Below are positions 8,404-28,787 of a DNA stretch of 64,000 nucleotides, in pieces (the stretch's first letter is position 1; the number at the start of each line of letters is the position of its first letter). The translations under genes were made by a program, and so were the position numbers. Location of the stretch: NCBI GenBank assembly GCA_002245135.1, contig NGBS01000591.1, forward strand, positions 62,001-126,000. The letters are read 5' to 3'. The stretch comes from Proteromonas lacertae. Its lineage: Eukaryota; Sar; Bigyra; Opalinata; Proteromonadidae. Below the pieces are notes generated by a model that ran no database searches, had not been told where the DNA came from, and saw only the letters and a program-made list of their open reading frames with translations.

Positions 8404-8777
8404 TTAGTCAAAAACATTAGATCTAATGATTAGTGATTCTTCTTCAGCTTCTTTAATGACTTCACTCAGTCTATTTCTGTAGAACTCTATTTTCGGTGGA
8501 TTGACTGATGAAGGGAAATTGTAGTATATATTTATACATTGACCTACTACATTTTGATGCTTGAAAATATCATCAACAAGGAATGTATGGAGCTTACTTC
8601 TGACTGCTGCTGTCTGGTCTCCATAAAATTTCATTACATCATGCCATTTGCAACCATTATCTCTAATGAACTCCAATTCTCTCTGAAATGTTAATCTTCC
8701 TTTTCTATTATTGTAAATGGCTGAATGATTGATCGAATGTCTCTTACTTTCTTAATTAGGTCTGGGACAACTATCAT
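8404..8777 (-). pseudogene. Small Polinton-region protein, frameshifted
   Basis: The ATG at 8777 overlaps the TGA of the preceding large gene as ATGA, so this belongs to the same compact gene set. The first frame gives MIVVPDLIKKVRDIRSI and then goes out of frame. The reading resumes as NNRKGRLTFQRELEFIRDNG and continues to a stop at 8404 (GCKWHDVMKFYGDQ, HTFLVDDIFKHQN). Without the frameshift near 8715 it would encode about 120 residues, mostly helical. I do not recognise it. The single shift may be a mutation or a sequencing error. There is no transmembrane segment. Confidence 0.45.
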
Positions 8778-10272
8778 CTTAAAATCACTATAGTTTTTGC
8801 CATTGATGGCATAGCTTTTGATAATTCACTAATACCTTTAACTGCAGCAGCAGTTGTTGCATCACCTCCATTTGCAGCTGCAGCTACAGTTGCTGCTGTT
8901 TTTAATGTATCACCTACATTTTTTGCATCTATATTTCCAATATTAGAAAATTTGTAGAAGAATGGAACTAATTGAAATAAGTATCGAACATATGGATGAG
9001 TATTGAACATAAATGAAACACCAAAGTTATACAACAAGTCTACAGGTAACATTGATTTAACTTTTTCTGAATTACCATAATACAAGTCAGTGATAGCAGG
9101 TAATCTACCACCTGACAGCATACGAATTATTTCATAGTAGTCGAAAATGAAGTACCACATTACATACAAGAACCCTGATGTTGGTAGTTTAGATTTTTTC
9201 CATAACCAATAAGCCAAACATGTCATTACTATTGCACGAACATATATCATTGCATGATCTACTTCAAACATTTGAGGAGTAACTCCACCTACCAAATATG
9301 ACTTCATTGTATAGTATATTTGTGGAAATATCCTAAATACATTCTCTACACACAGGAACAAATTACCAGCAAAACCCATAAAATCAGATTCACGTAATGA
9401 ATCGAGTGCTTTTTGAAATTGTGAATTTTCAAATTGTGCCCATGAACTACAAGCAGTTTTCACTAAACCAATAGCTATTTCATATTTTTGTTTATTATCT
9501 GCATTCACCCACTCTTGAGGAAGTGAGTGACCTAACTTCTCTCTGTTATAATCAAAGTTAATGAAATCTCTACTATTCTGTGATGCTATTTCATTCAGTT
9601 CTCTATATTTATCTTCATTAATCCATGTATGCGGTTCTTTATCTATATCTATAGCACTATTCACCAGTTCTTGATTTTTTGGATCTAATGCCCATCTATA
9701 AAATTTTGATCTTTCTAATATCTCTTGATCATCCATATATCTTTGTGCCTTTTGATTATTCATTGCAATATATTCTTTTACTTTTTCAGCTCGATTCGGA
9801 TCAAAATTATATGGATCTGAATATTGATTGATCTTACTTACTCCATCAACTAATTCATTCTGCAAATACTCCTGCTGTAATAATAGTTTGTTATAATATT
9901 CTATTGCATCTTTATCATTACCTGTTAATTTATCCCAAGTTGAGGTCAACCAATCTTGTCTATAATTTTTATAGGCTGCTAATTGAGGATTCTTTTCTAT
10001 AATCTCTTGTAATGATTTATAATTTTGTAATTTAGGAAATTTTTGTAACAAAGGATATGTAACTCTATTCATTCCATTATCATATGCCTGAACATCTGCT
10101 TCTGTAACATATTCAGGCCAATTCAAAAGATAGCTTCTTGGATTAGATGTATCTAATTCTGCTAATGGATATGTTCCTCTTAAATGTCCTGTTTTATGTT
10201 CACGATCTAGCATATCATAAAAATTAATATGATAATTGTTAGGCAACATTGAAGCATAATTATCTGTAATGT
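8774..10272 (-). pseudogene. Polinton-region large protein, copy A, C-terminal part
   Basis: An open 490-residue stretch without a natural start, because homology to copy B (14820-16634) extends upstream to 10272 and then stops abruptly at foreign DNA. The two copies share HLRGTYP/NLRGTPA-type, LLLQQEYLQNELxDGVSKI and SQNSRDFINFDYNREK blocks. They also share a hydrophobic segment around FLYVMWYF.DYYEIIRMLSGG, and both end in an Ala-rich tail. It probably continues from the fragment at 11895-12437 and perhaps from 12365-13609, giving a protein of 700-1000 residues with several membrane segments. The family is unknown to me; a structural or membrane role in the virus-like element is inferred from size, position and duplication. 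It is inactive here because the insertion removed about 70 codons seen in copy B. Confidence 0.55.
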
Positions 10273-14819: not shown

Positions 14820-16634
14820 TAATGATCCAAATAGTGTAATTGATGAACTACCTAAGAAAGGATTCTTTGGTTATGGAAGATAACATAAAAAACATGTTCA
14901 TTTTCAAAAAACATAGAAAACATAATAGGAAGAGTAAATTGTAATTAAAATCAATTCCACATAGGCATTGTTTGGCTACTAACGTTTTAGGAGGTGTTGT
15001 ACAACTAAATATGGGAACAACAGTAAAACTTAATGAACACTTTGTTGTTCCCAATCCAAGACAAAGTGTAGATGAAGGTAAAATACCAATCTATATACCA
15101 ACTCAATTACCAACTAATGTACAACGATATATACCAGAACAGCCTGTTGGATACAATTATAATTGGAATTATAATAAATTGTTTGGACCTGGTTTAAGTA
15201 GACAAGCTAGAAGAGAGATTCAATATCTAATCACAAATAACTATGCTCAACACTTATCTAATAATTGTCACATTGATTTATATGATATGAGAGATCCAGC
15301 ACATAAGAAAGGTAATTTAAGAGGTACTCCAGCATTAGCTCAATTAGATACATCAATGCCAAGAGAATATATTTTAAATTGGCCTAAAGGTGTTACAGAA
15401 CAAGATGATATGGCATATGATAATGGAGTGAATAAAATAACAGATGATTTATATAAAAGATTTCCTCAATTACATGGTTATAAGTCGTTACAGCAAGCAA
15501 TTGAAATGAATCCTGAACTACAAGCATACAAAAACTATAAAAATAATATATTATCTAAAGGATGGGACTATATTATGGGAAATAATAAGGAAATGAATGA
15601 ATATTATAATAAGCTATTACTGCAACAAGAGTACTTGCAAAATGAATTAGCAGATGGTGTTAGTAAAATACATACTTATTCTGATCCATCTAATCTCGAT
15701 GCTGAAAAAGTTAAAGAATATATTGCATTAAATAGTCAAAAAATGGGTAGAGTAATGAATGATGATCAAATAAAAGACCAATCACTCTTTTTTAAATTTG
15801 CTACTGAGAATCCAGACATTATGTCAAAAGTTCCAGATATAGGTCAAGGTGAATGTTCACCAATAAATGAAGATTATTATAGAATGCTTAATGAAGTAGC
15901 TTCACAAAATAGTAGAGATTTCATTAATTTTGATTATAATAGAGAGAAATTTGCTCATGAACTTCCTGAAGATTGGATGGCAGCTTCTAATCCAGAAAAA
16001 GTATCGATAGCATTTGGTTTGCTGAAAACAGCATGTTCATCATGGGCAAAATTTGAAAATTCACAATTTCAGAAGGTATCGGACTCTTTGAAGGAAACTG
16101 ATTAACAGGTTTTGTAAGTAACTTATTGTTGTGTGTAGAAAATTTGTTTAGGATATTTCCTCAGATATATTATACATTCAAAGATTATTTAGTTGGTGGA
16201 GTGACTCTTCAAATGTTTGAAGTAGATCATGTAATGAAATATGTACGTACAATATTACTTTCATGTTTGGCTTTTGGTTATGGAAGAAGGCAAAGTTGCC
16301 AATGACAGCCTTTCTGTATGTAATGTGGTACTTCGTGTATGATTATTACGAAATTATTCGTATGTTGTCAGGTGGTCGTTTACCTGCTATCACTGACTTA
16401 TATTATGGTAATTCAGATAAAGAGAAGGCTATATTACCAAAAGCATTACAAAACTCTTGGTTACCGATAGATTTAATTTATAATTTTGGTGCATCATTTT
16501 TGTTCAATAAACATCCCTATATCAGACATTTGTTTCAAGCAGTGCCATTTTTGTTTAGGTTTACTGGTATGTCACCTCCTAATTTAAGTAATGATAGTTC
16601 AGGATCGATATTGAAAGCTGCTTCAGAAGTGTAG
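14820..16634 (+). pseudogene. Polinton-region large protein, copy B, truncated and broken
   Basis: The inverted partner of copy A. The first 140 bp match the basic-patch region of copy A but contain two stops. A long open stretch follows (14972-16105) with LGGVVQLNMGTTVKLNEH, PGLSRQARREIQYL, LLLQQEYLQNELADGVSKI and SQNSRDFINFDYNREK. A frameshift and stop at about 16105 interrupt it, then the hydrophobic part resumes at 16263 (FLYVMWYFVYDYYEIIR, MLSGGRLPAITDLYYGNS) and is lost again near 16634. It preserves about 70 codons missing from copy A. Its downstream neighbour is the adenain-like protease in the same direction. Divergence from copy A is considerable, so the duplication is old or the two came from separate elements. 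Confidence 0.55.
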
Positions 16635-16759: not shown

Positions 16760-17248
16760 ATGAGTAACTTAGATCAATTAAAACAAGTTAATCAAGCTTT
16801 AAATTGGTTTCAAAGAGGTAATGGAAATAATAAAAAAGTAAAGAAATTAATTTCACGTAGGAAGATTTTATATAACAATATCACTTCAGATGCCTTATCG
16901 AACTTTGATATAGAGTTAATTGTGAAAAATGAGTTCAATAATTTTCACGGAAAGTTCATGGGAGTGTTCTGCTGGGACGAGCTTGTACTTCCTACACCCA
17001 AAAAGAAGAATCAATGGGGAATCATAATCAATACACTCACCACACAAGCTAGCCCTGATTCTATAGGTCATTGGGTGGCCTTAGTAGTTGACAATATCAA
17101 GAAGCAATTCCTGTACTATGATTCATTTGGTGAAGATCCTCAACACTTAGAAAAATTCAAAAAAAGTTTGAAAAAATTAAAGAAGTATCATAATGAAAAG
17201 TATGAACTTAAAATCAATGGAGTACAGAACCAAAATTCAAATACTACC
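16760..17248 (+). pseudogene. Adenain-like cysteine protease, N-terminal part (interrupted)
   Basis: The Polinton-type C5/Ulp1-related protease, which in such elements matures structural proteins. The catalytic histidine block IGHWVALVVDN is followed by the acid block YYDSFGEDP. Next comes the glutamine-containing stretch NGVQNQNSN that precedes the catalytic cysteine in adenovirus-like proteases. At 17248 the gene is cut by a 10.18-kb transposon. The rest, starting with NCGYF, lies at 27431 on the other side. Removing the insert and one CTACC copy leaves the reading frame unbroken, so the gene was intact when the transposon landed. Length would be about 210 residues, normal for the family. 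The inserted DNA gives a stop after about 11 extra codons. Confidence 0.8.
17244..17248. repeat. Target-site duplication, left copy (CTACC)
   Basis: CTACC immediately precedes the terminal TGTTG of the transposon and recurs directly after its terminal CAACA at 27426-27430. A 5-bp duplication fits integration by a retroviral-type integrase. Confidence 0.85.
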
Positions 17249-17370
17249 TGTTGTTCCCCGTTGAGTACAACTCCCCGTTGAGCGATTAGAAACTTTAGAA
17301 ACAAACTAATTATATAATGTTATTACTCATAATGAGTTATGAAGGGATATAATGTTACCTTGTCATATAA
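17249..17370 (+). repeat. Left terminal inverted repeat
   Basis: It matches the complement of 27305-27425 at roughly nine bases in ten over the first 105 bp, with the outer ~42 bp nearly identical. CCCCGTTGAG occurs twice about 21 bp apart, which looks like a pair of integrase-binding sites. Confidence 0.85.
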
Positions 17371-18200
17371 GCTACTTTTGTGAGTAAAAAAATAGTGTCA
17401 TAATATTGAGAAAAAACTACATAAATGAGTGTTAGAATTAATTTATATTTCATATTTTATGTTTTTATTTTAATATGATGTCTAAATAAAAAGTGACAAA
17501 ATTTAAGGATTTAAGAATTATACCCCTTCTGACGTCAGTGTTTTCACACAAACTTTCTCAAACTACATTCATTTCATTTTTTTGATTTTAAAACTATTAA
17601 AATAGTTAATATTATTGTAATTTAAATAATTAGCATAAATGGATTTTTATCATACAAAATTTGCTGTTTTTATATCACCAATATAGATATAAACAAAAAA
17701 TGTGTAATTGTGGAAATATATTTATAGAAAAAGTGTCTTTTTATTTACTATAATATATATAATGAGTGTATAATGAGTATAGTTAATATATTGTATCAGA
17801 TCTTAAAATCACTTGCAAATCAGAATACACTCTTTTGTTTTCTTAATACAAATTAAATAATGTTTATTATTTTATATAAAATACAGCTAATTAACCAAAT
17901 CACACTTCTCGCATTACATTCTTATACATTCAACTCTTCTGGACTTATGAAACATATACCATTTATTTTTATATGCTTTTCTTTTCTAAGTGTTTATTAA
18001 TATGTTTTTCATACAACTTAAAAAACTATTGTAAAACAAAGAAAATAACACAAACCTCAAGCCTATGATAATATTTGAATTTTGATATCAAAAATGTAAG
18101 TGTTATATATATATATATTATTATTATTATATTATTATATATTATATATTATTTATCAATTTATTTATATATATATATATTTTGCGTTAAAGGTAGATAT
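17371..18200. other. Left interior of the transposon, no gene seen
   Basis: AT-rich, without an ORF I trust. A short stretch around 17500-17535 resembles the complement of the right interior near 27130-27165 (a run of Cs flanked by A/T, with AAATTTAAGGATTT-like sequence), so weak inverted similarity extends past the terminal repeats. Confidence 0.45.
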
Positions 18201-18202
18201 AG

Positions 18203-19640
18203 ATGAATATAGTCATTGGTAAGAAGAATGAATATTATGTATAGTTAGTAAAATATTTTTCTCAATTTGGTAGTCAATCATTATATTCATTTATCGATAA
18301 TTATGATAAAGAAATTTTTAATGCTCATTTGGAAACTGTTTTGGAATTGTATGTATATATTTTGTTATAATTGTTGTTTATAGATAAAAGGTGATAATGC
18401 GAATAGAATGAAGATGAACATAAAGTTGAATCCTCTAATACTAAAGAAGATGAGATAAGTCAATTGAAAGAAGAGTTGAATGAAATGAAGAAAGAAAAGA
18501 ACGAATTAGAAAGTCAATTGAAAGAGATGAAAGAAGAATCTAAACCATATACTGATGAAATTGAATCATCAAATAGTTAAAAAAAGAATAAAGAATAAAT
18601 AGAGAAAGAGTTGAATGAATTGAAAAATAAAATCAAAGATAATAATAAGATAGAAAATGATGTAATTTACAAAAGTGAAAAACTTGGAATAAGTGAAATA
18701 GAAGAAATAGAAAATGAATTGAAAGAAGAATGAGATAAATCTAATCAATAGAATGTAGAATTACAGAAGAACAAAGATGAATTAGAGAAAGAAATAACTC
18801 AATTAAAAGAACATCAATCTAAATCTCAGAATGAATTAGAGAATGAATTAAATGGATTGAAAGAACAACTAGATAAATCCAAAGAAGAGAAAGAAGAAAT
18901 GAAAAAGAACAAAAAAGATTTAGAGAATGAGTTGAAGAAAATGAATGATGAAGTAATAAAATGTTAAACCATTTTAAGATAATTCAAGTATTTATTTTAT
19001 TCCCATAATCAGTACTTCAGTTTAGTTATATCAACATGATGACATGATAATGAAGAAATGATTGAATAAGTGGGTAATGATCCTGAAGTGTTAGCTTTTA
19101 TTGGAACTTCTACTAATGAAGAAAGATAAGCAATTCATCCATATTTGTCAGAATATAATAAATAATTATTCTCATTTTATGTTGTAGAAGTTTAAAAAAG
19201 TTTACAAGAATGTAATACAGTTTGGAAGAATGCCTCATCATTATATGATTAAAGTATTTAATTATCACTATATTAATAGAAGATTATAATATAACATTGA
19301 ATAATGAGAATGGTATAATAAGTGGATTTCCAACTAATGAATTGAATAATATGTTGAGAATAAAAATAACAGGTAATAATGATAAAGAAGGAATAGAAAT
19401 AGAAAATTCAGTTATTAAACACATTCAGTTGCAAACCTATCTCACATATTATGAAACAAAATATATATTTTGTAAGTGAAGAAGATAAGAAAAAATATAG
19501 AATAGAATAATATGAAGGCAAATGAAATTGACAGATAAAACAAAAGGAGTGTTTGTAAGAATAAATGTGAATAAGTGTATTTAGATAATGTATTACTTTA
19601 GGTGATTTTACATTAGTTGGTATGAATTTATTGTTTTTTG
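18203..19640 (+). pseudogene. Coiled-coil protein relic with many in-frame stops
   Basis: A single frame can be followed for most of about 1.3 kb. It runs through an N-terminal part (SQFGSQSLYSFIDNYDKE), a long coiled coil (repeated ELKKE/KELE-type heptads, LKEHQSKSQNELENELNGLK) and a C-terminal part (NDPEVLAFIGTSTNEE, then FPTNELNNMLRIKITGNN). About ten TAA, three TAG and at least four TGA codons interrupt it. Intron-like segments with GTAT..TAG ends (about 18350-18384 and 19250-19275, the latter 26 nt) keep the frame, so this was a spliced gene. The stops fall where Gln or Arg codons would fit, each one C-to-T change away. The family is unknown. It is probably a captured gene that has decayed by C-to-T change; alternatives are discussed in the findings. 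Confidence 0.5.
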
Positions 19641-19786
19641 AGGTTTTATTTCAGCAATACATAATTAGAATTCAATGATTTATATAAAAAATAACAGTAA
19701 AAACATTAGCTATATATATTTATTACTATAACTATATATATACATATAATTCTCATTTATTTCATAATATATATCATAATATATAG

Positions 19787-21465
19787 GTTTTCTGAAGTAT
19801 TACACCTTGATCAAGTACTTGAGGACGATCACAAACCTCTTTATTATCAAGCACTTGATAAGTTGTTTAAAGAAAAAGCCTCTTCCAGCGGCGATAAAAA
19901 GAGAAAAGAACACAGAAGAAGTCATTCTGTAGGTATCGAAAAGAGAAAGAAAGGAAACAAAAGAAGCCGTTCTACTAGTAGTAATGAAGTAGAAGAAGAT
20001 AATTATCGTTGTAGAAGCTTTACCAAAAAGAAATACGATGATTATGTAAAAGATATAAACTTCTATTCCAACAAAGGTTATTCTTACGATGAAGAGACAA
20101 AGCAGTTATTGTTTAAAGGAAAGAAGGTTATTAAAATTGAAGAATCGTTTGATGTACTAAAAGAATTACACGAAGGTAATGGTCACATTACAATTGAACC
20201 TTTGTATTACTTGGTAAATGAAAAGAAGTACTATGGTATTACCAGAGAAATGGTAGATGTATTCGTAAAAACATGTTCTGGATGTAAAGAATTGAAGAAA
20301 GTTCATGTTGAACAACCGTTAAAACCGATACTATCAAGCTATCCACGCGAAAGAGTGTTATGCGATCTAATTAATATGAGTAAAATCAATGAGAAATTTA
20401 CAGTTACTGAAGAAGAACAGTTTAATTACATTCTTACAGTGATTGATCATTACAGTAATTTTACAATTATATATCCATTAAAGAGAAAAACAAAAGAAGA
20501 AACAGTGAAGAATATGCGAAATTATATCAGAATTTTTGGTGCTCCTCAGATTCTTCAAATGGATAATGGTACTGAATTCAAGAATGATTTGATGAGAAGT
20601 TTATGCAATGAATATGGAATTGAAGAAGTTCATAGTGCACCATATAGGCCTCAAACGAATGGAAAGGTAGAAAGGTACAATCGAGTTGTGAAAAACACTT
20701 TAAAAGGATTTATGATGTCGAATAAAGGCATTTATTGGACTGAATTTGTTGATAAAATTATTGAAACAATAAACAATCACAAGTGCAGAAGAACACATTC
20801 TAAGCCTAGATCTTTATTCTATATGGATATTGAACAATTAAAGAAGGAAAACCCAAAGTTATTTATAAAAGAAAATGGCGAAGAAGATGGTGATAATGGT
20901 GGTAATAATGGTACAGTTGATGGTGATGATGATGGTAATGTTTGTCATGATGAATTATGTGATTGTTCTAAAGAAGATGATAAAGAATATTTTAATGATG
21001 ATGAATACGATGAAGTTGAAGTAATAGAAATAGCAAAAGAAAAATATGATGAGAAGAAAAACATAGAAAACATCAGAAAAGATATTTTGAAAAATGAACA
21101 TAAACTCCAACAAGTAAAAGATTACATTAATAAAAGAAGAGATGAATACAATGATAAAATGCATGATGAATCAGAAAAAAAGCTGAAGAAAACTATTATC
21201 AATCCTAAACATGGTGATATAATTGTCTATACCGACAAGAAGAAGAATTACGCAGATAACAACAAGAAAGGAATAATTAAAGAAGATAAAAAAACTAAAG
21301 ATTTATATGGATTGTATACTATTAATATTTAAATTAATATAATTATATAGGATTGATGACCAAGCAATTAAACTTACTACATCTTCAGCATTTACAATAA
21401 TACCTGTTACAAAAGAAGTAAATGAAAAAATGAAAAGAAAAGCTGATGAATTATATGTATTATAA
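19787..21465 (+). CDS. Retroviral-type integrase/transposase (DD35E)
   Basis: The enzyme that cuts and joins the transposon ends. A basic, Ser-rich N-terminus (possible nuclear signal) precedes an HHCC zinc module (LHEGNGH ... CSGCKELKK). The catalytic core has DHYSNF, QMDNGTEF and NGKVERYNR; exactly 35 residues separate the second Asp from the Glu. YRPQTNGKVERYN is the usual rve signature. After an acidic region the C-terminus contains HGDIIVYTDKKK, perhaps an SH3-like end. A 37-nt host-style intron (21314-21350) replaces a premature stop and adds about 38 residues, ending at 21465. The visible coding begins after a splice-acceptor-like TATATAG at 19786. The first exon and ATG were not located with certainty, so the start is provisional. 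The open frame suggests it is functional. Confidence 0.85.
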
Positions 21466-21488
21466 AGTTTATTATTATTATATAATAG

Positions 21489-22934
21489 ATGAATCCTCAA
21501 TCAAAGAAAAGACTATTAGATCCTGATTATAAGAAACAATTACATGAAATAGTTCATAGGCCAAAGTTAAATGCAGTCTATGGAACTATAGCTATAGGAG
21601 CAATTGATATTAAATTAGATTCATCATCACCATTAGAAGAAAGTCGATTAGAATATGTTAAATCTGTTAGAAATAAAATTGGAACAATGCAGTTGGATAT
21701 TATAGATGTAAGATTTATATTGGATTTATATACTTATGGAAGTCAATTTGATCTATTATTAGAGAATGATGAATGTTTAGGTACTTATATAACAACTAAA
21801 AATAGGGATATTTATATAATTAAGTCGGATAGTAGGTATTATACAACGTATCAGACATTAGTAAAAGGTATAAAGTATATTCATGTCATTGACTCATCTA
21901 ATAAAGGTAATTATAAAACAGATTTAGAGAAACTCAGAATTAAAGTTGGTAAAGATAAAGATCAATTCAGATTATTAGTTGATAAGGTGGAAACAAATCA
22001 TCCAGAAGCTACAGATATAGTTTCATTGGTAGTATTTATGATGAAATGTAAGGGTGCAAATATTATTAGTGTTGACACAAGGTTATTAGGAGATTTGTTT
22101 AAAGAATATATAGATACATTAATCAATACCAATTCATGTTTATTGAACTTGGCATTTTTTAAATCATATTGTTCAAAAATATCAACATCATCAATTACTT
22201 ATGAAGAAGAACAAGAAAGCCATGGTTTAAGCTTTGTAAAAAAGATAAGAAAAGTATTTCAGTATGATGATAAGATTGTTTGTTACAAAGGTAAAGAAAG
22301 GGCTGGAAACATCAGTAAATGTGAAAAATTAATATGTGATATGAATACTAATTATGAGTTAAATACAGACGAGTTCACACTTCTACTACATTTCATCAAC
22401 AATGACAATAGTGATGTTATAGATCCATTGGTACTATATCAGAGTGAAGCTCCCAATCACCCCATTCATCATAGTGGTACTTATTTCATTCCAGTATGCA
22501 GAGAACATCATTGGACAGTATGGGAGGTGGAATATGTAAAGAATGAATCAATTACATGTTATATCCATGATTCAATGAAAGAATATACTCATGACTCTCA
22601 AGATAGAAGGTATTTATACTCTGATATTACATCATTATTTGACACAGAAAACATCGATATCTCTTATAAATGCAGTAAAATAATACCATTAGATTATGAG
22701 TTAAAGAACTTAAAACAAAAAGGTGATAAGAGCTGCGGTTATTTTGCATTGTTCTTTTTAGGTATAAGAAAGATGAATATGGAAATTGAAGATGTGGAAC
22801 ATATAGAATCTTTCAATATATCGTACTTTATAATGGATTTAAAAAGGGTTTTAGCATCATTGGATAATAATGATAAAGCAAAGTTATATTGGTATAAAAA
22901 GCATAAACCATCATTCTATAAATTCAAATGCTAA
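21489..22934 (+). CDS. Ulp1/C48-like cysteine protease of the transposon
   Basis: 481 residues starting 23 bp after the integrase stop, in the same direction. The C-terminal third is a SUMO-protease-like peptidase: the histidine block REHHWTVWEVEY, the acid block CYIHDSMKE, and the glutamine/cysteine block LKQKGDKSCGYFALFFLG give the full His-Asp-Gln-Cys set. The N-terminal 300 residues are unlike anything I recognise (DPDYKKQLHEIVHR, LVVFMMKCKGANI). Ulp1-like domains are known from several large eukaryotic DNA transposons; whether they process the transposase or host SUMO conjugates is unsettled. No frame damage is visible. The element thus brings its own cysteine protease into a host element whose protease it destroyed. 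Confidence 0.8.
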   Translation: MNPQSKKRLLDPDYKKQLHEIVHRPKLNAVYGTIAIGAIDIKLDSSSPLEESRLEYVKSVRNKIGTMQLDIIDVRFILDLYTYGSQFDLLLENDECLGTYITTKNRDIYIIKSDSRYYTTYQTLVKGIKYIHVIDSSNKGNYKTDLEKLRIKVGKDKDQFRLLVDKVETNHPEATDIVSLVVFMMKCKGANIISVDTRLLGDLFKEYIDTLINTNSCLLNLAFFKSYCSKISTSSITYEEEQESHGLSFVKKIRKVFQYDDKIVCYKGKERAGNISKCEKLICDMNTNYELNTDEFTLLLHFINNDNSDVIDPLVLYQSEAPNHPIHHSGTYFIPVCREHHWTVWEVEYVKNESITCYIHDSMKEYTHDSQDRRYLYSDITSLFDTENIDISYKCSKIIPLDYELKNLKQKGDKSCGYFALFFLGIRKMNMEIEDVEHIESFNISYFIMDLKRVLASLDNNDKAKLYWYKKHKPSFYKFKC

Positions 22935-23059
22935 CATCTATATTAATTAATTATAATAATGTTTTATTGTAACTTGTTTGTTTTACAAATTTAACTTTTA
23001 AATAACAAATAATTAAAAGTATATAAATTCATATTCACTATTCCTATTAAGATTAAAAT

Positions 23060-26000
23060 ATGTGTATGTAATACACATACTATAATACATCTATCTATAT
23101 ATTAATATCAAAAATTACTCAAAATTTGACTGAATCTAGTTTCAGATTCAGTCAAATTTTAAGTAATTTTTGATATTAATATATATTTATATACAATTAA
23201 TAGTATCTAACATATACAGAGAGTATCAAGTTAATACTGTGTGTCTGTACTCAACAGGGAGAAAAGAGTAAATTTCATCCCATTGAGTACAGACAAACAG
23301 TATTAAGCTTATAGTATGTGTATGTAATACACATACTATAATACATCTATCTATATATTAATATCAAAAATTACTCAAAATTTGACTGAATCTAGTTTCA
23401 GATTCAGTCAAATTTTAAGTAATTTTTGATATTAATATATATTTATATACAATTAATAGTATCTAACATATACAGAGAGTATCAAGTTAATACTGTGTGT
23501 CTGTACTCAACAGGGAGAAAAGAGTAAATTTCATCCCATTGAGTACAGACAAACAGTATTAAGCTTATAATATGTGTATGTAATACACATACTATAATAC
23601 ATCTATCTATATATTAATATCAAAAATTACTCAAAATTTGACTGAATCTAGTTTCAGATTCAGTCAAATTTTAAGTAATTTTTGATATTAATATATATTT
23701 ATATACAATTAATAGTATCTAACATATACAGAGAGTATCAAGTTAATACTGTGTGTCTGTACTCAACAGGGAGAAAAGAGTAAATTTCATCCCATTGAGT
23801 ACAGACAAACAGTATTAAGCTTATAATATGTGTATGTAATACACATACTATAATACATCTATCTATATATTAATATCAAAAATTACTCAAAATTTGACTG
23901 AATCTAGTTTCAGATTCAGTCAAATTTTAAGTAATTTTTGATATTAATATATATTTATATACAATTAATAGTATCTAACATATACAGAGAGTATCAAGTT
24001 AATACTGTGTGTCTGTACTCAACAGGGAGAAAAGAGTAAATTTCATCCCATTGAGTACAGACAAACAGTATTAAGCTTATAATATGTGTATGTAATACAC
24101 ATACTATAATACATCTATCTATATATTAATATCAAAAATTACTCAAAATTTGACTGAATCTAGTTTCAGATTCAGTCAAATTTTAAGTAATTTTTGATAT
24201 TAATATATATTTATATACAATTAATAGTATCTAACATATACAGAGAGTATCAAGTTAATACTGTGTGTCTGTACTCAACAGGGAGAAAAGAGTAAATTTC
24301 ATCCCATTGAGTACAGACAAACAGTATTAAGCTTATAGTATGTGTATGTAATACACATACTATAATACATCTATCTATATATTAATATCAAAAATTACTC
24401 AAAATTTGACTGAATCTAGTTTCAGATTCAGTCAAATTTTAAGTAATTTTTGATATTAATATATATTTATATACAATTAATAGTATCTAACATATACAGA
24501 GAGTATCAAGTTAATACTGTGTGTCTGTACTCAACAGGGAGAAAAGAGTAAATTTCATCCCATTGAGTACAGACAAACAGTATTAAGCTTATAATATGTG
24601 TATGTAATACACATACTATAATACATCTATCTATATATTAATATCAAAAATTACTCAAAATTTGACTGAATCTAGTTTCAGATTCAGTCAAATTTTAAGT
24701 AATTTTTGATATTAATATATATTTATATACAATTAATAGTATCTAACATATACAGAGAGTATCAAGTTAATACTGTGTGTCTGTACTCAACAGGGAGAAA
24801 AGAGTAAATTTCATCCCATTGAGTACAGACAAACAGTATTAAGCTTATAGTATGTGTATGTAATACACATACTATAATACATCTATCTATATATTAATAT
24901 CAAAAATTACTCAAAATTTGACTGAATCTAGTTTCAGATTCAGTCAAATTTTAAGTAATTTTTGATATTAATATATATTTATATACAATTAATAGTATCT
25001 AACATATACAGAGAGTATCAAGTTAATACTGTGTGTCTGTACTCAACAGGGAGAAAAGAGTAAATTTCATCCCATTGAGTACAGACAAACAGTATTAAGC
25101 TTATAATATGTGTATGTAATACACATACTATAATACATCTATCTATATATTAATATCAAAAATTACTCAAAATTTGACTGAATCTAGTTTCAGATTCAGT
25201 CAAATTTTAAGTAATTTTTGATATTAATATATATTTATATACAATTAATAGTATCTAACATATACAGAGAGTATCAAGTTAATACTGTGTGTCTGTACTC
25301 AACAGGGAGAAAAGAGTAAATTTCATCCCATTGAGTACAGACAAACAGTATTAAGCTTATAGTATGTGTATGTAATACACATACTATAATACATCTATCT
25401 ATATATTAATATCAAAAATTACTCAAAATTTGACTGAATCTAGTTTCAGATTCAGTCAAATTTTAAGTAATTTTTGATATTAATATATATTTATATACAA
25501 TTAATAGTATCTAACATATACAGAGAGTATCAAGTTAATACTGTGTGTCTGTACTCAACAGGGAGAAAAGAGTAAATTTCATCCCATTGAGTACAGACAA
25601 ACAGTATTAAGCTTATAATATGTGTATGTAATACACATACTATAATACATCTATCTATATATTAATATCAAAAATTACTCAAAATTTGACTGAATCTAGT
25701 TTCAGATTCAGTCAAATTTTAAGTAATTTTTGATATTAATATATATTTATATACAATTAATAGTATCTAACATATACAGAGAGTATCAAGTTAATACTGT
25801 GTGTCTGTACTCAACAGGGAGAAAAGAGTAAATTTCATCCCATTGAGTACAGACAAACAGTATTAAGCTTATAATATGTGTATGTAATACACATACTATA
25901 ATACATCTATCTATATATTAATATCAAAAATTACTCAAAATTTGACTGAATCTAGTTTCAGATTCAGTCAAATTTTAAGTAATTTTTGATATTAATATAT

Positions 26001-27042
26001 ATTTATATACAATTAATAGTATCTAACATATACAGAGAGTATCAAGTTAATACTGTGTGTCTGTACTCAACAGGGAGAAAAGAGTAAATTTCATCCCATT
26101 GAGTACAGACAAACAGTATTAAGCTTATAATATGTGTATGTAATACACATACTATAATACATCTATCTATATATTAATATCAAAAATTACTCAAAATTTG
26201 ACTGAATCTAGTTTCAGATTCAGTCAAATTTTAAGTAATTTTTGATATTAATATATATTTATATACAATTAATAGTATCTAACATATACAGAGAGTATCA
26301 AGTTAATACTGTGTGTCTGTACTCAACAGGGAGAAAAGAGTAAATTTCATCCCATTGAGTACAGACAAACAGTATTAAGCTTATAGTATGTGTATGTAAT
26401 ACACATACTATAATACATCTATCTATATATTAATATCAAAAATTACTCAAAATTTGACTGAATCTAGTTTCAGATTCAGTCAAATTTTAAGTAATTTTTG
26501 ATATTAATATATATTTATATACAATTAATAGTATCTAACATATACAGAGAGTATCAAGTTAATACTGTGTGTCTGTACTCAACAGGGAGAAAAGAGTAAA
26601 TTTCATCCCATTGAGTACAGACAAACAGTATTAAGCTTATAATATGTGTATGTAATACACATACTATAATACATCTATCTATATATTAATATCAAAAATT
26701 ACTCAAAATTTGACTGAATCTAGTTTCAGATTCAGTCAAATTTTAAGTAATTTTTGATATTAATATATATTTATATACAATTAATAGTATCTAACATATA
26801 CAGAGAGTATCAAGTTAATACTGTGTGTCTGTACTCAACAGGGAGAAAAGAGTAAATTTCATCCCATTGAGTACAGACAAACAGTATTAAGCTTATAGTA
26901 TGTGTATGTAATACACATACTATAATACATCTATCTATATATTAATATCAAAAATTACTCAAAATTTGACTGAATCTAGTTTCAGATTCAGTCAAATTTT
27001 AAGTAATTTTTGATATTAATATATATTTATATACAATTAATA
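23060..27042. repeat. Tandem array of 256-bp units (about 15.6 copies)
   Basis: Unit starts fall at 23060, 23316, 23572 and every 256 bp to 26900, and the last unit is partial. Copies are almost identical; the one difference I see is A or G two bases before the unit start. Each unit has three inverted repeats: GTATGTGTAT/ATACACATAC around 3 bp, an AT-rich pair with ~40-bp arms centred on CTAGTTTCAG, and a 22-bp pair containing TCTGTACTCAAC and GTTGAGTACAGA-like arms. The last pair resembles the transposon termini (TTGAGTACAAC, TACTCAACGGGGA). There is no ORF. It lies between the protease stop and the right end of the transposon, so it may be an amplified internal non-autonomous copy or binding-site array. 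Confidence 0.9.
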
Positions 27043-27304
27043 ATTAAGTTTAATATTTTTAATTACGAAAAAATTTAAAAAGATGTACAAAAATATAAAC
27101 AATTACATATGAAATTAACGATAAAAAAATAATTAAGGGGGTAAAAAAATTCAGGATTTACAACACATTTTTTTGTTTATCTCATCATCCAATTGAAAAT
27201 TTTTGAAAATAATTTATATTATTAATAAGCATAATATGTACATATATAATATGAAATAAAAGTGAACTAGTTGGTGTAATAGATGATATCGCGACATGTT
27301 GTAT
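27043..27304. other. Right interior of the transposon, no gene
   Basis: AT-rich, non-coding. It contains AAGGGGGTAAAAAAATTCAGG at about 27134, a block that recurs at 28499 in the diverged related end. Confidence 0.5.
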
Positions 27305-27425
27305 ATGTTATATGACCACCTATATATCCCTTCATAACTCATTATGTGTAATAACATTAAGTAGTTAGTTTGTTTCTAAAGTCTCTTATCGCTCAACGGG
27401 GAGTTGTACTCAACGGGGAACAACA
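27305..27425 (-). repeat. Right terminal inverted repeat
   Basis: Complement of the left terminal repeat, ending ...CAACGGGGAACAACA at 27425, followed directly by the second CTACC copy (27426-27430). The paired CTCAACGGGGA motifs mirror those on the left. Confidence 0.85.
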
Positions 27426-27569
27426 CTACCAACTGCGGTTTTTTTGCTATTAATTTTTTGAAAAATATTTTAAGAGATCAGTGTAATTTCAAAAAGGCTA
27501 CTGACTATAATACAATAGTGGGTGAAGCAAAAATTAGGTTAATGAAAAAACAATTTGGATTAATATAAA
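27426..27569 (+). pseudogene. Adenain-like cysteine protease, C-terminal part
   Basis: The other side of the split Polinton protease. After the duplicated CTACC, the frame opens with NCGYFAINFL, the catalytic cysteine block, and runs about 45 codons to a TAA at 27567-27569. The frame matches that of 16760-17248 once the transposon and one CTACC are set aside. On its own it has no start codon and cannot be active. Confidence 0.8.
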
Positions 27570-27589: not shown

Positions 27590-27890
27590 TTTGGTGTTAT
27601 TCTATTGATTTATCATTTTTTCTAATTCTGGGTCTTTGTAATATTTTTCTGAACCAAGTATCTCGTGCTTCATCTTTTTTCGCTAGCTGCAGCTTATAGT
27701 GCTTAAAATGAATAAGTGAAAAATCTGGTATCTCTCTGCCATCTTGATCTCCAAAACAATACGAATATCATTTTACGTCTTCGCTCCTTAAATCTCACCA
27801 AGTCACCAACTTCGAAATTTTGGTCATTTTTTTCAAGTTTTTCAAAATTTTTCAAATTATAGTTTATTGACTTCATTATTTAAAAAAATA
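27590..27890 (-). pseudogene. Small Polinton-region protein, one frameshift
   Basis: From an ATG near 27877 the minus strand reads MKSINYNLKNFEKLEKND and FEVGDLVRFKERRRK. A shift near 27770 leads to CFGDQDGREIPDFSLIHFKH and a basic tail ending before a TAA near 27591. About 100 residues. VGDLVRF followed by two beta-like stretches suggests a small barrel of the SH3/chromo kind, as found at the ends of integrases, but this is weak. It converges on the protease and probably belonged to the Polinton-like element. Confidence 0.4.
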
Positions 27891-28265: not shown

Positions 28266-28489
28266 TTCACAGTATTATAATTTGTTACATAAACCACTAC
28301 TATACATTTCCAACACACATTCTACTCTTTATTACTTAGATTAATATTTATTTATCCAATGTTCATTTAAATGAACTATATGCTCAGATAAAAATATGTA
28401 TATATGAATTAAACTAAATTTAATTAATAAATAGTAAGAAATTTAAATAAAAATGCAAAAAAGAAAAAACAACTAAATGTTTGAATAAC

Positions 28490-28787
28490 AAGCTCGTAAG
28501 GGGGTAAAAATATTCAGGAATAGAATTTTATTTTTGTTAATATCTTCATAATATAATAGAATTGGTATAAAATATTTTATATATGAAATGAGTATAATTC
28601 ATACATACATTTTATATAGTAAAATTTAATATGATAGTCTATTTGTTGATATTAACATGTCTAGTATACATTATAAAACTAAACATATATTTGAACATAA
28701 CTCATCTTCAACATCATAAATATGATATTAGTTTTGAAAAAGTCTTCTTAACGCCCAACGGCGCATTTAGCTCAACGGCGCACAACA
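28490..28787 (+). repeat. Diverged right end of a second related transposon
   Basis: It ends CTCAACGGCGCACAACA at 28787 and has a second CCCAACGGCGC 20 bp inside, the same double-motif layout as the 10.18-kb transposon (CTCAACGGGGA twice, then ACAACA). Further in, CATAACTCAT and, near 28499, AAGGGGGTAAAAATATTCAGG also align with the intact element. No matching left end was found, so it is a truncated copy of a related family. The 63-codon ORF inside it is not a gene. Confidence 0.6.

Follow-up and report, generated by a model that had tools for sequence, protein, structure and literature searches.

Insertion of a transposon in a Polinton protease gene

The window, a 64,000-nucleotide stretch of Proteromonas lacertae contig NGBS01000591.1 (here C31), holds at positions 17249-27425 an element that is very likely a Ginger-type DNA transposon driven by an integrase, a recent copy that landed in the protease gene of a Polinton fragment already in decay. 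The inserted element is 10,177 bp long (TGTTGTTCCCC...GGGGAACAACA), starts with TGTTGTTCCCCGTTGAG and ends with its complement; the left terminal inverted repeat (TIR, 17249-17370) and the right one (27425-27308) are 89.3% identical over 122 columns, and a CTACC target-site duplication lies on either side (Table 1). For the mapping of empty sites, 400 bp of left flank and 140 bp of right flank were placed separately, unjoined, on 82 loci, and loci with one flank only were left out of the count. Wherever both were located, in 22 related Polinton loci (20 distinct contigs, C293 and C436 being represented twice each), the two flanks adjoin and overlap by 5 bp. The flank alignments run to the very ends in 20 of these loci, and for L040 and L041 the flank bases next to the junction (the last 3 and the first 5) were extrapolated. 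The empty site is demonstrated directly by these 22 contiguous loci, and the nested insertion is real. This bears out the initial annotation, which had described a clean insertion of a DNA transposon with a DD35E integrase and a Ulp1-like protease in the adenain-like protease gene of a Polinton. The two protease halves likewise belong to one gene, as had been claimed, being found joined in relatives elsewhere and not as separate full genes, and the protease frame is open apart from the insert, with no other stop on either side. The integrase would bind the doubled end motif in each TIR and join the TG...CA ends to the target with a 5-bp stagger, which would produce the CTACC duplication.

State of the interrupted Polinton

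An intact paralogue of the interrupted protease gene (L034) matches Peptidase_C48 with 34.4 bits (cut-off 20.7) and Peptidase_C5 (adenain) with 24.1 bits (cut-off 21.3). A genome search with this protease gave at least 151 matches (150 of 314 candidates scored); the first 29 span residues 1-245 uninterrupted, and 27 of these are free of stops. No other protease gene split by a long insert was recognised besides the window copy among the matches listed, and recurrent insertion at this gene, raised in the initial annotation, thus found no second example there. DNA_pol_B_2 lies on the same contigs as protease relatives, for example C445, C256, C1076 and C235, and this association with an adenain-like protease supports the Polinton identity of the interrupted element.

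The further claim that the insert had disabled the Polinton is not supported, and the insertion was rejected as a demonstrated cause of Polinton inactivity for three reasons. The neighbouring structural-type gene has a one-base frameshift, present in the window and in four empty relatives (L046-L049) and missing from L050 and the L034 type; being shared with empty relatives, it is probably older than the insertion. The convergent gene (433 amino acids) is cut, only residues 323-432 being found and DNA similarity ending near 27,874, and no DNA_pol_B_2 match lies on C31 among the 109 matches listed (91 of 260 candidates scored). The L146 copy of the convergent gene gave no Pfam, PHROGs or PDB match, its description as an integrase being a reading by eye. 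At the DNA level, the integrase genes on C340, C685 and C863 match that of the window at 99.5, 99.1 and 98.6% identity, respectively, whereas the Polinton copy differs from its nearest relatives by 3-9% in aligned pieces. A young element thus probably landed in a Polinton that was older and already broken, though the comparison orders the events without dating them.

Families, copies, and target duplications

By sequence comparison the intruder is one of at least four integrase and Ulp1-like protease families in the genome, which contains at least 104 integrase matches and at least 94 protease matches. Family 1 comprises the window copy and those on C340, C685, C863, C1130, C485, C117, C942, and C716; family 2 includes C326, C18, C190 and others, family 3 C490, C58, C752 and others, and family 4 C848, C1147, C502 and others. 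The integrases of families 2-4 are 42-43% identical to that of the window and the proteases 34-37%. Exact-pattern scans found 320 ends that belong to the types of families 2 and 3 and 73 that belong to family 4, and the reversed control patterns had no match. The C716 and C340 copies (L002, L005) show the same family-1 insertion and flank at 99.7% identity, which suggests allelic or duplicated contigs, and copy counts may be inflated.

Duplications were scored in 36 end pairs from families 1-4, consisting of 10 of 18 short family-4 copies, 20 of the about 25 short pairs listed (family 2/3 types), five long copies and the window. As the initial annotation had anticipated for other copies, a duplication is present in 28 pairs including that of the window, exactly 5 bp long in 25 and matching over 6 bp in 3. 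Counted by distinct flank pair (n = 34, among which L133 is the reverse complement of another), 24 are exactly 5 bp, 3 match over 6 bp and 7 show none. By eye, the C340 copy has the duplication ATACC and a short copy on C865 has AGACA. The 29 duplications collected from the 36-pair set and the copies read by eye, one repeat dropped, show a weak palindromic pattern (RNWNY), the central base being A or T in 28; CCG or CGG occurs in 0 of 29, as does TATA. At C254:85713-87022 (L126, L101) a short family-4 copy of 626 bp lies inside a short copy of family 3, and both have a 5-bp duplication of their own; at C154:122844-123523 (L136) the flanks are inverted complements of each other and not a direct repeat.

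Predicted integrase-Ulp1 protein

The window integrase matches rve (E = 2.3e-14), and rve matches were obtained in families 1-4. The D-D35-E triad is present in 8 of 8 aligned integrases and the zinc-binding HHCC residues in 7, the eighth sequence starting past that region. The order integrase then protease is constant in the copies studied. In all four families the protease exon follows a phase-0 gap of 25-32 nt that starts with GTA and ends with TAG, and an upstream intron A fits families 1, 3, and 4. Host introns look much the same: two of them, 27 and 28 nt long, were read in a hexosaminidase-like gene of the window. The first residue of the protease exon is M, I, V, or I(D) across the four families, indicating that a separate protease start codon is not conserved. 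The phase-0 gap with intron signals, the lack of a conserved start and the host-like introns together suggest an integrase-Ulp1 fusion, with integrase, linker and Ulp1-like domain forming one predicted spliced protein as in Ginger1. The most likely product would thus be a single protein with an HHCC and DD35E integrase followed by a C-terminal Ulp1-like protease.

The H, D, Q, and C residues align across the family proteases, with Q-x7-C in family 4 instead of Q-x5-C, and the family-3 homologue matches Peptidase_C48 with 31.0 bits (cut-off 20.7). Profile matches of the protease exon to ChlaDub2 and XopD are weak (E 0.017-0.17). The ChlaDub2 chain also weakly matches the N-terminal half of the exon, and this half may be a second, degenerate protease domain. 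A Foldseek search with the protease model returned Ulp1, NEDP1, SseL, OtDUB, and AvrA within ranks 1-17, all weak. The initial annotation had called the two nested cysteine proteases unrelated-looking. Direct similarity between them is indeed weak (hhalign probability 27%, E = 7e-4), but both are alike in kind, Ulp1/adenain-like. The Ulp1-like protease of the element may strip SUMO or ubiquitin from host proteins involved in repair or chromatin. A database search with the protease exon and a PHROGs search with seven proteins gave no match; one search of viral contigs gave two relatives at 27% identity and a second viral search none. The nearest integrases in the protein database are five proteins from one source, 42-59% identical over the matched part. 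No polymerase or capsid gene was recognised in the insert among open reading frames of at least 120 amino acids.

Cargo and end motifs

The 5' regions of families 1, 2, and 3, the three compared, have common end blocks and different genes inside. In family 2 a stretch at C18:59000-62850 (L152) contains three collinear pieces that match Hydin in 7sqc (1e-38, 1.5e-22 and 5e-14). At least 80 genome matches to this HYDIN cargo were found, one of which (C172:123339-124013, L153) lies within an open frame of 4,892 codons, presumably the host copy of the cilia gene HYDIN. The family-2 fragment and the C172 sequence are 97.5% identical over 673 bp without gaps, with 9 synonymous and 8 non-synonymous codon differences. 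Of 33 longer HYDIN matches, 20 lie within 5 kb of a listed integrase or protease match, a count that used 33 of the 104 integrase matches and 25 protease stretches from the 94 protease matches. The family-1 cargo of the window resembles C158 and C390 in three collinear pieces (84-91%), making these loci candidate donors. The multi-exon family-3 cargo (C58:206000-209700, L151) gave no Pfam match above the cut-off with the four pieces tested. Some families thus have copied host-gene fragments in the 5' region along with variable 3' units that contain their own end motif as an inverted pair.

The end of each family carries a doubled motif, which in family 1 is CCCCGTTGAG, and families 1, 2, and 3 have their own motif again, as an inverted pair, between the protease exon and the right end. 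In each of these three families the score against the own end is reached by 0 of 300 mononucleotide shuffles, and the ends of other families give nothing comparable. The family-1 pair is part of a 256-bp unit whose number differs among copies: C685 has 21 full units and part of another, C340 and C942 have about one each, and C863, C1130, and C485 lack a complete one. By eye, the family-3 copies L030, L031, and L032 also differ by such units. The internal motif pairs could be extra integrase-binding sites. In five families a block containing GGGGGT is found 288-300 bp in from the right end. This block was rejected as a cis signal required for movement, being missing from 31 of 31 short non-autonomous copies examined.

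Relation to known transposons

Ginger1 elements, as described in the accessible text of PMC2836005 (Bao, Kapitonov and Jurka 2010), have a Gypsy-like integrase with a zinc finger and DDE core, TG...CA termini, long TIRs, a C-terminal Ulp1 domain, GPY/F and YPYY motifs and 4-bp duplications (CCGG or CCGT), and come from four animal species. The element shares with them the Gypsy-like zinc-finger DDE integrase, the TG...CA ends and the long TIRs, and through predicted splicing would also have a Ulp1 domain C-terminal to the integrase, but its duplications are 5 bp long, follow RNWNY weakly and contain no CCGG or CCGT. GPY/F and YPYY motifs were not recognised by eye in our integrase alignment. 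For the Ginger2/TDD group the same source gives TGTNR ends, TIRs of about 50-300 bp, an H2C2 zinc finger with DDE and a target preference RTATAY, and describes no protease in the text available; duplications are 4 or 5 bp, with 5 bp in TDD-4/TDD-5 of Dictyostelium (PMC2836005, PMC10045372, accessible parts). The 5-bp duplication, TGTTG ends (TGTCG in family 4), TIRs of ~120 bp and the HHCC and DDE residues all agree with this group, whereas the Ulp1-like exon, the cargo and the repeat units do not, and the RTATAY preference is not seen.

Polintons, for which the accessible part of PMC10045372 gives a characteristic 6-bp duplication and integrases reported without HHCC, resemble the element in the adenain/Ulp1-type cysteine protease and, in general, the rve integrase. 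The insert differs in its 5-bp duplication, its HHCC and the absence of a recognised capsid or polymerase gene. In the same text, IS481EU and IS3EU/GingerRoot have no HHCC, and their duplications measure ~4, 15, or 25 bp, or else 6 bp where the ends are mostly TA..TA, in contrast to the HHCC, 5-bp duplication and TG..CA ends found here. On these published descriptions, the families appear to be a new variant of Ginger-type transposons with a Ginger1-like layout and a TDD-like duplication, which we leave unassigned between Ginger1 and Ginger2. No description of the intruder family was noticed among the open PMC texts listed, which is not proof of its absence from print; a search of PMC12863088 for five terms gave no match.

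The nesting itself is ordinary, and its description as unusual in the initial annotation was overstated. Ngaro retrotransposons interrupt about one in four virophage-like elements (EMALEs) of Cafeteria (PMC8547959), and retroelements occur inside Polinton-like viruses (PMC12220804), as far as the accessible parts of these sources go. In those cases as here a mobile element lies in a virus-like integrated element, sometimes in genes, but the intruders there are retrotransposons and here an integrase-type DNA transposon. Copied coding fragments are also carried by Turmoil-1 of C. elegans, which is reported in part of PMC2572040 to hold host-gene pieces through transduplication; here it is a HYDIN fragment in an integrase-Ulp1 family.

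A broader interpretation, offered as a tentative possibility, is that these families form an undescribed lineage of gene-carrying integrase-Ulp1 transposons that combines a Ginger1 layout with TDD-like 5-bp integration, has repeatedly loaded host fragments (HYDIN, coiled-coil) and has motif arrays that evolve with the ends as integrase-binding regulators. Few features set the boundary between Ginger1, Ginger2/TDD and Polintons. With such a lineage present beside more than 100 Polinton gene matches, a gift of integrase and protease from Ginger to Polintons would become testable, and a Ginger1-like integrase-Ulp1 layout with 5-bp integration in a Polinton-rich genome would provide test material for the scenario outlined in the accessible text of PMC10175614. 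The end-motif arrays give direct access to the recognition of DNA by the integrase, and as the HYDIN fragment shows, such elements can amplify pieces of host genes.

Alternative explanations

Several observations weigh against a recent Ginger-type copy in a decaying Polinton, or against parts of that interpretation. A duplication is absent in 8 of the 36 end pairs and, by eye, from the C685 family-1 copy. Family 2 has no clear intron-A acceptor. The window protease falls below the Peptidase_C48 cut-off and the homologues of families 2 and 4 also gave no match to this family; Foldseek gave no match at E ≤ 0.001, with many unrelated metallo-beta-lactamases below rank 17, and the AlphaFold models are poor (mean pLDDT 55.7 and 49.0). 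The Polinton protease frame is itself open on both sides of the insert, and the description of the Polinton as decaying depends on the frameshift that it has in common with empty relatives, on a truncated gene that is integrase-like by eye and on the missing polymerase match. Family 4 has no internal end motif (63 of 300 shuffles reach the score), and the family-1 copies without full units also lack the part of the unit that holds it, indicating that the internal motif is not essential.

The element could be a stripped-down Polinton that kept integrase and protease and lost capsid and polymerase, in which case two Polinton-type elements would be nested. This would fit the presence of a Ulp1/adenain-type cysteine protease in both elements and the proposal, in the part of PMC10175614 available, that a Ginger1-related transposon was the source of the Polinton integrase and protease. 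We nevertheless consider it highly improbable, given the duplication of 5 and not 6 bp, the HHCC reported as lacking from Polinton integrases (PMC10045372, accessible part), the weak protease similarity and the different gene layout; a profile comparison with the local Polinton integrase-like gene, weak because that gene is without Pfam or PDB match, aligned a C-terminal tail at a probability of 1%. It is less improbable, yet still unlikely, that integrase and protease are two genes, the short gaps not being introns and the protease starting at an internal codon. The window protease frame does have an ATG start and its own stop, and the missing acceptor in family 2 agrees with this, but other families start the protease exon with I, V, or I(D) and not M, and phase-0 gaps resembling host introns recur in all four families, which favors the single spliced protein.

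That the element prefers Polintons, the insertion here having been selected as a silencer of an active virus-like element, we regard as scarcely probable. The insertion does sit in a gene of an abundant Polinton family, in a frame without other stops, and nesting of retrotransposons in virophage elements is known in Cafeteria (PMC8547959, accessible part). However, when 32 family-1 end flanks were compared with the Polinton protease loci and window 7-17 kb, taking the best match per flank, only the window insertion adjoined a protease gene in this limited reference set, and the remaining 8 flank matches fall in window 28.7-29.2 kb. The C340 copy and its near-identical C716 counterpart lie more than 750 bp from recognisable Polinton sequence, and the window Polinton copy was probably already defective. 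C863, considered as a second Polinton insertion, was not borne out as one: it has a polymerase gene nearby, but no family-1 left end was found in C863:5900-7300. For the internal end-motif pairs, an origin as by-products (RNA hairpins or remains of nested ends) has a chance slightly under one half. Their absence from family 4 and from copies without full array units would suit by-products, whereas the motif of families 1-3 tracks the family's own diverged end and has no comparable match to the ends of others, which speaks against by-products.

Other features of the window

The features of the insertion and its surroundings are collected in Table 1.

Table 1. Features of the nested insertion and the interrupted Polinton in the window
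Position	Strand	Feature	Basis or remark
14972..16634	+	Polinton structural-type gene, broken, without Pfam match	one lesion common to four empty relatives
16760..17248	+	upstream part of Polinton adenain/Ulp1-like protease gene	profile matches, relatives, empty loci
17244..17248	.	left target-site duplication CTACC	sequence; 5-bp overlap in 22/22 empty loci with both flanks
17249..17370	+	left TIR	starts TGTTGTTCCCCGTTGAG; 10-bp motif CCCCGTTGAG present twice
18203..19560	+	5' cargo, decayed coiled-coil gene remnant common to family-1 copies	candidate donor-like loci C158/C390
19787..21313	+	integrase exon (HHCC, DD35E)	start inferred from 3' splice site; listed open reading frame 19863-21332
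21314..21350	+	predicted intron A, 37 nt, GTATAC...ATATAG	intron signals
21351..21456	+	predicted linker exon	similar in four families
21457..21488	+	predicted intron B, 32 nt, phase 0	25-32 nt counterparts in all four families
21489..22934	+	Ulp1-like protease exon, 481 aa	H341, D361, Q410, C416 aligned
23045..27042	+	tandem array of 256-bp unit, about 15.6 copies	sequence
23245..23292	+	first of 15 internal inverted end-motif pairs, CTGTACTCAACAGGGAG ... CCCATTGAGTACAG	one per 256 bp up to 26876
27129..27162	+	conserved block containing GGGGGTAAAAAAATTCAGGA	289 bp from right end
27308..27425	-	right TIR	terminates ...GGGGAACAACA
27426..27430	.	right target-site duplication CTACC	sequence and empty loci
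27426..27568	+	downstream part of same Polinton protease gene, catalytic NCG block	relatives, empty loci
27603..27879	-	C-terminal remnant of convergent Polinton gene, integrase-like by eye	no Pfam or PDB sequence match

The right end of a further related element (TGTTGTGCGCCGTTGAGC...), for which no left end was found in the window, lies at 28399-28787 and has a GGGGGT block 288 bp from the end. A second copy of the Polinton structural gene, at 8774-10249, belongs to another sub-lineage (97% to L034) and is inverted relative to 14972-16634.

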